Of a DNA stretch of 64,000 bases, positions 41,355 to 46,101 are shown in pieces. The DNA comes from Spirochaetales bacterium. GTDB taxonomy: Bacteria > Spirochaetota > Spirochaetia > Treponematales > Treponemataceae. Every line of letters starts with the position of its first letter. Position 1 is the first letter of the stretch. The notes beneath the pieces are model-generated. The model did no database searches, was not told where the DNA came from, and saw nothing but the letters and a program-made list of their open reading frames with translations. The stretch is taken from assembly GCA_030540405.1 (NCBI GenBank), contig JAUNWH010000007.1, positions 1-64,000 of the forward strand, written 5' to 3'. The position numbers were made by a program, and so were the translations under genes.

Positions 41355-41891
41355 TTACTCAGACTGATAATTTACAAGAGTTGTAACATTAAGATCTTCA
41401 AGCTTTTTCTGATAATTCAAGAAAGGAAGCCCTATAACGCCAAAGACATCCGTTGCCTTAGCACCGCCCTGCTCTATCAAATTTGCAGCCGCCTTTAAAG
41501 TTCCGCCGGTTGCAATAAGGTCATCAACCAAAAGAATATTCTGACCTTTTGAAATATCGGCAGTATGGACTTCTATTTCAGCAGTGCCGTACTCAAGCTC
41601 ATATTTACAAGTATATGTTTTTCCGGGAAGTTTCCCTTTTTTGCGAATCAAAATAAGAGGAATTCCCATTGCCTGGGCGAAAGGTGCAGCAAATACAAAT
41701 CCGCGCGACTCAATTCCAGCTACAGCATCAATCCTTTTATCCTTATAGAGCTCCACCATACGCTCAATTGTATAGCGGAATGCTTCCGGATGGCGAAGAA
41801 CTCCTGTTATATCATAAAACAAAACGCCTTTTTTAGGAAAATCAGGCACGCGGCCAATTACTTTATCAAGAACCTCAAAATCTTTATTCAT
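41355..41891 (-). CDS. apt: Adenine phosphoribosyltransferase
   Basis: 178 residues. It converts adenine and PRPP into AMP. The family features are DFPKKGVLFYDITGVLRHPE near the start, GIESRGFVFAAPFAQAMGIP, and the PRPP-binding loop ILLVDDLIATGGTLKAAANL. The ATG at 41891 has GGAG 5 bases before it; an earlier in-frame codon at 41978 lies above the promoter and is not used. deoD follows 66 bases downstream in the same direction. Confidence 0.95.
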   Translation of the reverse strand: MNKDFEVLDKVIGRVPDFPKKGVLFYDITGVLRHPEAFRYTIERMVELYKDKRIDAVAGIESRGFVFAAPFAQAMGIPLILIRKKGKLPGKTYTCKYELEYGTAEIEVHTADISKGQNILLVDDLIATGGTLKAAANLIEQGGAKATDVFGVIGLPFLNYQKKLEDLNVTTLVNYQSE

Positions 41892-41910: not shown

Positions 41911-41939
41911 ATTATAAACTGAATACAGGCAAAATGCAA
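41911..41939 (-). promoter_or_regulatory. Promoter of apt
   Basis: On the minus strand TTGCAT (41939-41934), 17-base spacer, TATAAT (41916-41911). It is followed by a GGAG site and the ATG at 41891, so this message has a normal leader. Confidence 0.65.
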
Positions 41940-41949
41940 ATATGAGTTT

Positions 41950-42320
41950 ACTGACAGGCTATTGACAAATTGGTGCATAAGCTATAGCAACATTATGTCA
42001 ATAAGCTATAGAGAATAATGCACATAGACTATGTAGCGTTATCTATATAAGCTATTAAGAACATCACTGACAGACTGTATATAGGTTAACTATACAGTCT
42101 ATGTACAGCATTACAGATAACTTATATATAAATATCAAATACAGACTGTCTATGCAGTATACGAATAGACTATATATGAATATTGCATATAGACTGACTG
42201 TGAGTAATGCGGATAGACTGTCAGCAGATATGTGTACTGACTGTCGACAAATATGCCGACAGTCAGTACGTAACACTGTGGACTGTCAGTACCACTATGC
42301 CGGTACTGTAAATATTTGAC
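41950..42320. repeat. Degenerate 23-24 bp tandem array with inverted, hairpin-forming units
   Basis: About 16 units follow one another with cores near 41956, 41979, 42003, 42026, 42049, 42072, 42095, 42119, 42143, 42167, 42191, 42215, 42238, 42260, 42280 and 42302: a period of 23-24, shrinking to about 20-22 at the right end. The core is close to ATAGACTGT or ATAAGCTAT. Some units are inverted, giving perfect hairpin arms: AGACTGTATA/TATACAGTCT (42072-42100), GTACTGACTGTCG/CGACAGTCAGTAC (42234-42269) and CAGTACC/GGTACTG (42287-42308). The left units are more decayed. It lies between the divergent apt and SH3 genes. Because 24 is a multiple of three, both strands have open frames with an 8-residue period, but these look accidental. 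Confidence 0.8.
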
Positions 42321-42364
42321 TCTTCCATAATTATATACCCTTAATTTCGAGTTTTATAATTTTA

Positions 42365-42466
42365 TGTCATTATCGGGCTTAACCCGATAATCTATTGAAA
42401 ATTTCCAACAGATTCCTGACCAAGTTTACTACTTAAACATCGCAGTGTCTTAGCACGGGAATGACA
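42365..42466. repeat. Palindromic repeat element, about 100 bp
   Basis: The ends are inverted copies, TGTCATT (42365-42371) and AATGACA (42460-42466). Inside are the perfect hairpin ATTATCGGG-CTTAA-CCCGATAAT (42369-42391) and the imperfect pair ATCTATTG/CAACAGAT. Shorter relatives occur at 555-588 and 57028-57066. Together with the array to its left this fills the only gene-free gap longer than 300 bases; the remainder (42321-42364, 42467-42507) shows nothing clear. Confidence 0.65.
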
Positions 42467-42507
42467 CTTAAATTACTGTTCTTATCAAAAGTCGGCATTC
42501 AGGCTAT

Positions 42508-42535
42508 TTAACACAAACTGTTACAATGCTATACT
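42508..42535 (+). promoter_or_regulatory. Promoter of the SH3-M48-cyclase operon, predicted leaderless
   Basis: TTAACA (42508-42513), 16-base spacer, TATACT (42530-42535). The start codon at 42543 is 7 bases beyond. A GAGG at 42538-42541 is only one base from the ATG, too close to serve as a ribosome site. Confidence 0.55.
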
Positions 42536-42542
42536 TTGAGGC

Positions 42543-43019
42543 ATGAGTAAAATCAAAATTATTTTTTTATCAGTTATGGCGCTGAATATTTCTTCTGCAT
42601 TCGCCGCAGAACCAAAGCCTCAGTATGTGCAGGTGGATTCAGCAATTGTCAGAGTCAAGGCGTCACAGTTTGCATCTAGCACAGGAACTTTAAAGCTTGG
42701 CGATAAAGTCAAAGTTACTTCAAAAGGAAAATCCTGGTCTTGCATTTCATCTGAGGATGGAAAAATTGCAGGCTGGCTTCCAAATTCGTCTTTAACAACA
42801 AAAAAGCTGATTGTAAATGTAAGTGGAAAAACTTCCGCAAATGCAAAAGAGCTTGGGCTTGCAGGAAAAGGAATGGACAAGGCATTTGAAAAAGTTTACA
42901 GCCAGGCAAGCGAAATTTCATTTGCTCAAGTTGATAAAATTGAAGCAAATGCTTGCTCAGAAAAAGACGCAATTGCCTTTATAAAAGAAGGCCAGCTCAA
43001 TGCAGGAGGTGAAGAATAA
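42543..43019 (+). CDS. Secreted SH3-domain protein
   Basis: 158 residues. A signal peptide (KIIFLSVMALNISSAFA) is followed by a bacterial SH3 domain: QVDSAIVRVKASQFASS, then LKLGDKVKVTSK and KIAGWLPNSSL (about 30-90). Such domains bind peptides or cell wall. The C-terminal 60 residues are helical and not recognised. Its stop shares a base with the ATG of the metalloprotease gene (TAATG), so the two products are tightly linked and may meet in the periplasm. Confidence 0.8.
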   Translation: MSKIKIIFLSVMALNISSAFAAEPKPQYVQVDSAIVRVKASQFASSTGTLKLGDKVKVTSKGKSWSCISSEDGKIAGWLPNSSLTTKKLIVNVSGKTSANAKELGLAGKGMDKAFEKVYSQASEISFAQVDKIEANACSEKDAIAFIKEGQLNAGGEE

Positions 43020-43960
43020 TGAAAAAGTTATTTAAGAAAATTCTTTGCATTTGCATTCTTTCATCAATTTCTCTAGCCGTATTTCCCACTGATATTTTTG
43101 GAGCATTAAACAAAGTCAACTCCGCTGTTCAAAAAGGCCAGAATGTAAAGAAAACTATTGAGCAAGCCAGTAGCACAGTTGAATCAATTGACAGAGCTGC
43201 TGAGCCTATTACAACGCAGGATTCATATTTTATCGGAAGAGCTGTTGCATCAAATGTGCTAACTGAATACAAGCTTTACACGGCATCTCCAAAAGCAACT
43301 GCTTATGTTAATAAAATTTGCAAAGCAATCACAATGAATTCCGACACTCCAAAAATCTACAAGGATTATTGCGTTGCGATTATTGATTCAGATGAAATCA
43401 ATGCGCTTTCTACAAGCGGCGGACACATTTTTATTACGACAGAAATTTTGAAATGCTGCAATTCAGAAGATGAGCTAGCTGCAATCATCGCGCATGAAAT
43501 TGCCCACATTCAGCTTAAACATGCAACCACAGCAATCAAGACTGTAAGAACAACAGAAGCAATCTCAAATTCCGCAACAATGGCAAAAAACTACACAAAG
43601 CAGTTTTCAAATCTCAATCAAGAGGAAAAGCAGTCTGCGGATTTTCTTACCAGTTCCAGTATTTCCATGATGAACATCATTACAGAAACTGGATATACAA
43701 AAGGCCAGGAATTCAAAGCTGATGAGAAAGCAGTTTCGCTTATGGCAGACGCAGGCTATGAGCCAAACGCCTTGACTGATGTCTTGAAAATGCTCAAGAC
43801 AAAAAGCAGCGGTGAAGATTCAGGCTGGGGAAAAACTCATCCAAAGCCAGAGACCAGAATCAACAGCGTGCAAAAAGCTCTTAAAAACTTTACTTTCACA
43901 GGCATCTCAAGAGATGTCCGCCAGTCAAGATTTGAAAACGCTTTGGCAGGAATAAAATAA
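43019..43960 (+). CDS. M48 family metalloprotease
   Basis: 313 residues, exported through an N-terminal hydrophobic signal (ILCICILSSISLAVFPTD). The zinc site is His159-Glu160-x-x-His163 in AAIIAHEIAHIQLKH, with the third ligand Glu231 in EFKADEKAV. This BepA/LoiP-like build, without the several membrane segments of HtpX, suggests a periplasmic quality-control protease. HPKPETRINSV near the end is typical of the family. It is coupled by TAATG overlaps on both sides, to the SH3 protein and to the adenylyl cyclase. Confidence 0.9.
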   Translation: MKKLFKKILCICILSSISLAVFPTDIFGALNKVNSAVQKGQNVKKTIEQASSTVESIDRAAEPITTQDSYFIGRAVASNVLTEYKLYTASPKATAYVNKICKAITMNSDTPKIYKDYCVAIIDSDEINALSTSGGHIFITTEILKCCNSEDELAAIIAHEIAHIQLKHATTAIKTVRTTEAISNSATMAKNYTKQFSNLNQEEKQSADFLTSSSISMMNIITETGYTKGQEFKADEKAVSLMADAGYEPNALTDVLKMLKTKSSGEDSGWGKTHPKPETRINSVQKALKNFTFTGISRDVRQSRFENALAGIK

Positions 43961-46101
43961 TGAAACAAAAACATAAGCTTTGGGCAAGAGCCATAATCAT
44001 TGCCATTTCAAGCATTCTGATAACTTTAGTTTTTCACTTTTTAGGATTATTCAATGCTTTTGAAAACAAATCCTATGATCTTCGCATGATAAACTCAGCA
44101 AAATACAAGCAACCTTGCGAAGAAATATGTTTAATTATTGTTGATCAGGAAAGCATTGACTGGGCAAAAGAAAAGTACAACTGGTCATGGCCTTGGCCTA
44201 GAGAAGCTTATGGAAGAATGATTGATTTTATTTCAGCAGGAAATCCTAAGGCAATCGCATTTGATATTCTTTACACAGAGCCTTCTGTATATGGAGAAGA
44301 TGATGACATTGCTTTAGGCATGGCGGAAGCAAGGAGCAAAAAAGTTATCCAGACATTTTTTTATTCCGCAGACGACTATGGAAAAACTTTAATGCCTGTA
44401 AAGCCAATCAATGACAATGCCGCTCTTTTAGGAAACATTACAAGCGCAAAAGACAGCGATGACATTATCCGCCGCACTCGTCTTTTCGACACATTCAATG
44501 AAACTGAATATCCCACTCTTGGACTTGCTCCTCTTTTTCTAAGCGAGGAAAAGCCTGATTATTCTTCTATTCCTGTACTGGGCAACAACACAGCCCTGTT
44601 GCGCTTTACAAAATCCATTGACGATTATTTTCCATACATCGCAAAAGACATTCTTGAAAGCCATGAGCTTTGGCTGCAAGGAAAAGAAGGTGTTTTATCT
44701 CCAGAGGATTTCAATGACCTTTACATTTTCTGCGCATATTATGCTCCGGGACTTTTTGACATCTGTTCAACGCCTGTCTCTCAAGTTTATCCGGGAGTTG
44801 GAATCCATATTACAACTTTGGACAATTACCTTACAGAGAGCTTTATAAAAAAAGTTCCATTCTGCATTTCTCTTTTGTGGCTGATTGCGCTTGCATTCTT
44901 TGCATCTTTGTTTGCTGTCATAAGTGAAAAAATTTCTCCACGGTTTTCTGCTGTTTTTATTTCAGTGGGAATATTTGCAGGAATCTCAGTTTCAATTTTT
45001 GTACCTGTAATTTTGTTCAACAACGGAATTTGGCTTTTAATGATTGCGCCTTTGTTTGCTTTTCTTATTTCAGAAATGGCAAGCGTTGTTGTAAGTTTGT
45101 CTGTAGAAGGAAAACAAAAACGATTTATCCGTTCTGCGTTCAGCCAATGCCTTTCAAAAGACGTCGTAAATCAAATTATAAACGACTCTTCTTCATTTAC
45201 ATTGGGAGGAAAGGAATTTGAAATGTCGGCGATTTTTACAGACATTCAAAAGTTTTCTTCCTTTAGCGAACTGCTCACAGCAAAAGAACTTGGATGCCTT
45301 CTAAACTTTTATCTTACAAAAATGTCCGACATCATAATTGACGAAAAAGGAACTGTTGATAAATACGAGGGAGATGCTATTGTTGCTCTTGTAGGCGCGC
45401 CAGTTGCAATGCCAGATCATGCAATTCACGCTTGTGCCGCCGCAATAGAAATTAAAAAAGCAGAGCAAGTAATGAATCAAGATATTATTCGATATTCCAA
45501 AAATCCTAAGCCTTCATGGATGGAAGAAGCTTTGTATTCTGCATTTAAAACTCTTGTTACAAACAACAAGACAATTTTTACTAGAATCGGAATTAATTCT
45601 GGCGAAATGATTGCGGGCTACTTTGGCTCAGAAAAGAAGAAGAATTACACAATGATGGGCAACAATGTAAACCTTGCTTCCCGTCTTGAAGGTGTCAACA
45701 AGCAGTATCACACAAATGGAATTCTTATTAGCCAAAGCACTAAAGAACTGCTTGGCGACAGATTTGTTGTGCGTTCTCTTGACCGTGTTCGGGTTGTAAA
45801 CATCAACACACCGATTGGACTTTATGAACTGATTGAAGAAAAATCCTTTGCCTCTCCAGAGCTTCTTGATTATATGCAGAACTGGGAAAGTGCAATGGCA
45901 GAATTCAACAAAAAAAATTACACAAAAGCTAAAGAATTGTTTTCTTCACTTGCAGAAAAAAACAGCAAAGACAATGTAGCAAAATATTACATTCATCTTC
46001 TTGACAACTATTTTCTTAAAGGAACTTTCCCAAAAGAATCTGATAGTGAAGGAGTTGAATTCAATCCAGACGATGGGGTTTTCAAACTGCTTCAGAAGTA
46101 A
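43960..46101 (+). CDS. CHASE2-domain class IIIb adenylyl cyclase
   Basis: 713 residues. A membrane segment (about 10-30), an extracytoplasmic CHASE2 sensor domain (about 35-295), three more membrane segments (about 300-375) and a class III cyclase domain (about 415-600). Metal-binding Asp428 and Asp472, substrate Lys468, and Asn571/Arg575 in NNVNLASRLE are present. The purine-selecting position usually Asp is Thr564 (NYTMMGN), the mark of class IIIb adenylyl cyclases. A TPR-like tail (about 635-690) follows. It probably makes cAMP in response to an envelope signal. It lies with the SH3 and M48 genes, and only 30 bases separate it from the convergent tyrA. Confidence 0.9.
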   Translation: MKQKHKLWARAIIIAISSILITLVFHFLGLFNAFENKSYDLRMINSAKYKQPCEEICLIIVDQESIDWAKEKYNWSWPWPREAYGRMIDFISAGNPKAIAFDILYTEPSVYGEDDDIALGMAEARSKKVIQTFFYSADDYGKTLMPVKPINDNAALLGNITSAKDSDDIIRRTRLFDTFNETEYPTLGLAPLFLSEEKPDYSSIPVLGNNTALLRFTKSIDDYFPYIAKDILESHELWLQGKEGVLSPEDFNDLYIFCAYYAPGLFDICSTPVSQVYPGVGIHITTLDNYLTESFIKKVPFCISLLWLIALAFFASLFAVISEKISPRFSAVFISVGIFAGISVSIFVPVILFNNGIWLLMIAPLFAFLISEMASVVVSLSVEGKQKRFIRSAFSQCLSKDVVNQIINDSSSFTLGGKEFEMSAIFTDIQKFSSFSELLTAKELGCLLNFYLTKMSDIIIDEKGTVDKYEGDAIVALVGAPVAMPDHAIHACAAAIEIKKAEQVMNQDIIRYSKNPKPSWMEEALYSAFKTLVTNNKTIFTRIGINSGEMIAGYFGSEKKKNYTMMGNNVNLASRLEGVNKQYHTNGILISQSTKELLGDRFVVRSLDRVRVVNINTPIGLYELIEEKSFASPELLDYMQNWESAMAEFNKKNYTKAKELFSSLAEKNSKDNVAKYYIHLLDNYFLKGTFPKESDSEGVEFNPDDGVFKLLQK

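Follow-up and report, generated by a model that had tools for sequence, protein, structure and literature searches.

The DNA considered here is an intergenic region within a window of 64,000 nucleotides (the whole stretch that was analysed), where a gene for an adenine phosphoribosyltransferase-like protein (apt) and an operon encoding an SH3-domain protein, an M48 peptidase and a CHASE2-nucleotide cyclase are divergently arranged. This location had been proposed by a sequence-only reading of the window, and the Pfam matches agree with it. Most of the gap between the two divergent promoters is occupied by a tandem array of short units, to the right of which lies a separate MITE-like insertion, a feature missing from that reading, as were the array class in the genus, the orthologues in sister species and their low divergence. 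The features are the following, both promoters being predicted by consensus match only.

41355-41891, minus strand: apt, adenine phosphoribosyltransferase-like protein (PF00156, Pfam)
41911-41940, minus strand: predicted apt promoter, TTTGCA-18-TATAAT
41943-42316, no strand assigned: tandem array, 16 units of 23-24 bp (EM register, autocorrelation, column-permutation fold test, orthologue lengths)
42072-42100, no strand assigned: perfect 10-pair hairpin of units 6-7, AGACTGTATA / TATACAGTCT (in the sequence and within predicted folds)
42234-42269, no strand assigned: perfect 13-pair hairpin, GTACTGACTGTCG / CGACAGTCAGTAC (in the sequence)
42287-42308, no strand assigned: perfect 7-pair hairpin of the right-end units, CAGTACC / GGTACTG (in the sequence)
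42332-42506, no strand assigned: 175-bp MITE-like dispersed element with a REP-like palindromic core, TTATCGGGCTTAACCCGATAA, between the array and the SH3 promoter
42508-42535, plus strand: predicted promoter of the SH3-M48-cyclase operon, TTAACA-16-TATACT, with TG before the -10 box
42543-43019, plus strand: SH3-domain protein, first gene of the operon (PF08239)
43019-43960, plus strand: M48 peptidase, same operon (Pfam)
43960-46101, plus strand: CHASE2-nucleotide cyclase, same operon (Pfam)

The array is a worn palindromic minisatellite and is non-coding. A motif search in both orientations finds its units head-to-tail at a spacing of 23 or 24 bp, and an EM register places their starts at 41943, 41966, 41990, 42013, 42036, 42059, 42083 and 42106 (units 1-8) and at 42130, 42154, 42178, 42202, 42225, 42248, 42271 and 42294 (units 9-16). 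Their consensus is approximately gAATATGCagATAGACTGTatA; its core, ATAGACTAT / GACTGTC, is near-palindromic and has either T or A in the middle (GACTGTC/GACAGTC), and a dyad core ATAGnCTAT recurs every 23-24 bp. Compared with dinucleotide shuffles, autocorrelation of the region has its top lags at 46 (z 3.9) and 23 (z 3.7), followed by 93 and 24 (down to z 2.5), and the number of shared 7-mers reaches 49 in direct orientation (16 expected) and 57 in inverted orientation (20 expected), about three times the shuffle mean for both alike. The initial claim of some 16 units with a period of 23-24 is borne out by these values, and the array withstands the two checks proposed along with it, autocorrelation at 23-24 and comparison with shuffled sequences, the latter both for inverted 7-mers and for folding (see below). 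A third proposed check, TRF, with default parameters does see the repeat, but only over about units 8-12 and reported as a 48-bp repeat. The units are about 50% alike throughout, with a per-unit mean identity of 0.41-0.55, units 4, 6, 10 and 11 having the highest values and units 15 and 16 the lowest. In this regard, the right end had been described as richer in G+C and composed of more similar units, with decayed units at the left; the higher G+C content of the right part stands, but the gradient of similarity is not supported, as the last two units have the lowest identity. Some units had also been read as flipped, whereas registers with a single orientation fit as well as mixed ones at widths 23-24, and nearly all units take one orientation in the motif search; their inverted look arises because the core is near-palindromic, with either T or A at its middle.

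The hairpins of 10, 13 and 7 pairs, on the other hand, are exactly as first described, and the 7-pair one is identical in the two sister species studied here, G145 and G021 (the window's own genome being G000). Predicted folding of the array as RNA is stronger than that of dinucleotide shuffles (z -5.1 for the plus and -6.4 for the minus strand) and also than that of column-permuted arrays, which retain tandem structure and composition (z -6.2 and -7.3, with 0 of 150 controls as low). When the order of the units is shuffled, little folding is lost, and 10 and 7 of 150 controls are as low. That the array folds better than column-permuted controls while unit order matters little indicates local palindromy of the units. 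Taken whole, the array shows no significant symmetry (p 0.13), and only its local hairpins are significant.

Several known systems were compared with the array and rejected. As already noted in the sequence-only reading, it is not CRISPR, for it lacks a constant repeat, nor convincingly coding, since a period of 23 shifts the frame and the ORFs span only 70-72 aa. The Nop5 domain (PF01798) of TIGR-Tas is absent in the genome itself and in 58 genomes of the genus, with positive controls. Phage or plasmid origin was rejected with no match save a weak one outside the array; in IMG/VR the array has no match, and the sole match to the pattern of CTTAGGAA, a family described below, sits in a coding sequence where there is no array. 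An HPt-like gene of another genome (G066) matches over 38 bp; the match is coding there and was judged to be due to chance. Moreover, BLAST and pattern searches found no other copy of the array in its genome; orthologous arrays are present in two sister species.

Arrays of the same geometry and different sequence are common elsewhere in Treponema. When 1.44 Mb of genus DNA, sampled without regard to arrays, was surveyed with TRF for non-coding arrays of at least 2.5 copies, periods peaked at 22 (7 arrays) and 23 (4 arrays), with multiples at 46, 66 and 69 and 1-2 arrays at each other period; these genus statistics describe sampled stretches, much of the blind sample and many of the surveyed arrays coming from one unusually array-rich genome (G218), and the outside control is 50 kb of E. 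coli only. In many arrays the best symmetry centres lie 11.0 or 11.5 bp apart, that is, half a period. Of 26 arrays, 14 are more symmetric than their column-permuted controls (p <= 0.05), among them every one of the nine CTTAGGAA arrays tested; palindromy of the TRF consensus units gives a Fisher p of 0.04, a test by consensus units being too weak. A search of 200 genomes of the genus for three GACWGTC cores at the spacing of the window found arrays of period 22-23 in four of them, several per genome, and the GACTGTC core is common to the window array and to arrays in G218, G076, G209 and G069. An argument for common ancestry from this core was rejected as weak, since 4 genomes were matched against 1-4 for control motifs. 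At three loci, L158 (19412-19620), L164 (11422-11607) and L170 (15113-15233), periods of 66, 69 and 46 are made of sub-units of 22-23 bp, and these are apparently higher-order forms of the class.

The best populated example is the family of CTTAGGAA, of 22 bp, which is dispersed in the window's own genome and in both sister species. G145, with its chromosome in one contig, has about nine loci, and G000 has many, most of them at contig ends (C4, C7, C8, C32, C36, C37, C41, C45, C52, C53, C60, C74, C79 and C81). Since contigs of G000 end in these arrays, the arrays break the assembly and their number there is uncertain. They have terminal inverted repeats, CTGAAGGAATACTT / AAGTATTCCTTCAG, with no leader or tail seen, and in the three genomes they are mostly within about 110 bp of the 3' end of a gene. 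One of them is contracted to approximately a single hairpin at the orthologous site of G021. Mirror-specific pairing of units was rejected for this family, as half-wise unit shuffles fold equally well.

Judged by anatomy, the nearest known system is BrickBuilt, a minisatellite-MITE of Porphyromonas gingivalis (Klein et al. 2015, PMC4596501), with REP/BIMEs next. In BrickBuilt, imperfect 23-nt units follow one another in tandem with no spacers and vary both inside an element and from one element to the next; the elements are strictly intergenic, with long predicted stem-loops and 19 dispersed loci, gain or lose whole units between strains, and have a leader and a tail segment with IS5-like terminal repeats (PMC4596501). 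The window array resembles them in its tandem units of 23-24 bp, in its intergenic position between apt and the SH3 gene and in its whole-unit turnover (16.0 versus 6.0 units), and the CTTAGGAA family in its similar number of dispersed loci. However, the window array occupies a single locus, though the CTTAGGAA family of the same genome is dispersed; no leader, tail or terminal inverted repeats were seen for it on reading its alignment with G145 and G021, the CTTAGGAA arrays having terminal repeats only; and the host belongs to another phylum. The window array is taken to work like a BrickBuilt element but is not classed as one, because dispersion and the leader and tail are lacking. REP sequences and BIMEs (bacterial interspersed mosaic elements) share with the Treponema arrays intergenic palindromic units in regular arrays of apparently alternating orientation and variable unit number, as well as a palindromy maintained through paired changes (PMC2817692), and differ from them in that the Treponema arrays have a shorter, strict period of 22-24 bp and sequences that vary between arrays. 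Mobilisation by RAYT was rejected, since the complete G145 has arrays and no match to the Y1/RAYT transposase (PF01797), of which G000 has one full and two partial matches; no REP tag GTAG or CGTC is visible by eye in the unit consensus. Ordinary bacterial minisatellites (VNTRs) are likewise tandem non-coding repeats differing in unit number, but here the units are palindromic, a period of 22-23 bp is common to unrelated sequences, and there are dispersed families with inverted termini. By its anatomy, the window array is probably a worn, single-locus member of an intergenic class of palindromic arrays with periods of 22-24 bp; the literature searched contained no description of this class in Treponema, and the class is of more interest than the single array.

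The 175-bp element recurs in G000 at C45:19115-19289 and C24:11790-12005, with a partial copy at C24:12293, and is also found in G145 and G021, its core TTATCGGGCTTAACCCGATAA being present in dozens of genomes of the genus. At three loci (the window, C24 of G000 and 528 kb of G145) a copy adjoins a 22-24 bp array. In relatives at L082, L083 and L084, the counterpart of 42543-46101 adjoins what reads as a carB-like gene instead of apt, which puts the array at a rearrangement junction; the array is absent in these relatives, and also at the apt and SH3 loci of more distant ones.

The length of the array is 373 bp in G000, 372 bp in G145 and 139 bp in G021, or 16.0, 16.0 and 6.0 units, a difference that is one of whole units gained or lost and that fits the amplification by slippage suggested initially. 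The preferred explanation, held with moderate confidence, is a palindromic minisatellite of the Treponema class, with whole-unit turnover driven by hairpins, that would serve as a structural spacer between promoters. The class would comprise intergenic palindromic arrays of 22-24 bp, some of them dispersed MITE-like elements with terminal inverted repeats, and the likely driver of turnover would be hairpins that form in single strands as the DNA replicates, with switches of template from one unit to another; this would also account for the flipped core centres and for double changes in the stems. At the apt/SH3 locus the array would most likely act as a spacer, through a cruciform in DNA or hairpins in run-through transcripts, a role suggested by what has been proposed for BIMEs and BrickBuilt and the least certain step of the explanation.

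A neutral relic, that is, a minisatellite grown by slippage, now decaying and functionless, whose low divergence from G145 reflects a recent regional exchange, is a possible but less probable alternative. G000 and G145 differ at 8 of the 373 array positions (2.1%) and at 286 of 2997 in the flanks (9.5%; Fisher p 8e-8), and the middle of the array (42000-42199) has no mismatch in 200 bp, which argues against a neutral relic. Yet every 100-bp bin between 41800 and 42500, a range that takes in the 175-bp element and the end of apt, falls below the flank divergence; because low divergence extends beyond the array, exchange of a short tract between these lineages could explain it as well as constraint could. 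G021, nearer to G000 in the flanking genes (94-97%) than G145 (about 92.5%), lacks most of the units and, at this site, the 175-bp element, which favours a neutral relic, and the low identity of the units, their variable number, the single locus and the lack of an array upstream of either apt or the SH3 gene in other relatives agree with it too. Against it, the end units are retained in all three species, and four of the eight differences from G145 amount to double changes at two base pairs of the 13-bp stem, where pairing is thus retained; in G021 a third pair of this stem is A-T (T-A in G000) and three other pairs are broken. Such paired changes are predicted by selection for pairing and by hairpin-templated copying alike. 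For other orthologous arrays, divergence in the array versus its flanks is 1.8 versus 4.5%, 2.2 versus 4.1% and 7.1 versus 6.9%, none significantly slower, and one further array diverges faster than its flanks (16.4 versus 6.8%).

An operator array, in which a dimeric protein would bind each near-palindromic core, about two helical turns apart, and co-regulate apt and the operon, is quite unlikely. The regular dyad core and its proximity to both promoters are consistent with it: 2 bp separate the array from the end of the predicted -35 box of apt, and in G021, where the MITE-like element is lacking, about 40 bp separate it from the -35 box of the operon. However, the core is very degenerate between units, no second place with the core array was found in the three related genomes, 10 of the 16 units are absent in G021 while both promoters are retained, and elsewhere the arrays of the class are unrelated in sequence and mixed in gene orientation. 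A structured non-coding RNA, made by transcription across the array with processing at its hairpins, is very improbable, for despite strong predicted folds on both strands, Rfam gives matches only below gathering scores, promoter-like sites in the region are no more numerous than in shuffles, unit order matters little for folding energy, and the short array of G021 folds no better than chance (z -0.8).

Beyond the preferred structural spacer, a bolder statement, which we consider speculative and rather unlikely as a whole, would define a class of Treponema elements by geometry instead of sequence, with a period of 22-24 bp and symmetry axes half a period (about one helical turn) apart, made and kept by hairpin template switching and in part mobile, the window array being an old member retained to serve structurally between two promoters. 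Should the class be real, genomes of Treponema would hold many small structural arrays varying in unit number, which could be typing markers and which break draft assemblies (about 14 contigs of the present genome begin or end in one family). The period of 22-23 bp common to unrelated sequences would point to a physical mechanism that makes palindromic minisatellites and could be tested at the bench. Two minor observations come from other genomes. In another family of the order (G155), a 22-bp array at L185 (13147-13206) has 2.7 copies of AAGTTAATATTGTTAACTT, a unit that is palindromic, which hints at an extension of the class outside the genus. A perfect CGAC tetranucleotide repeat of 21 copies is found at L176 (10178-10261) of G108.
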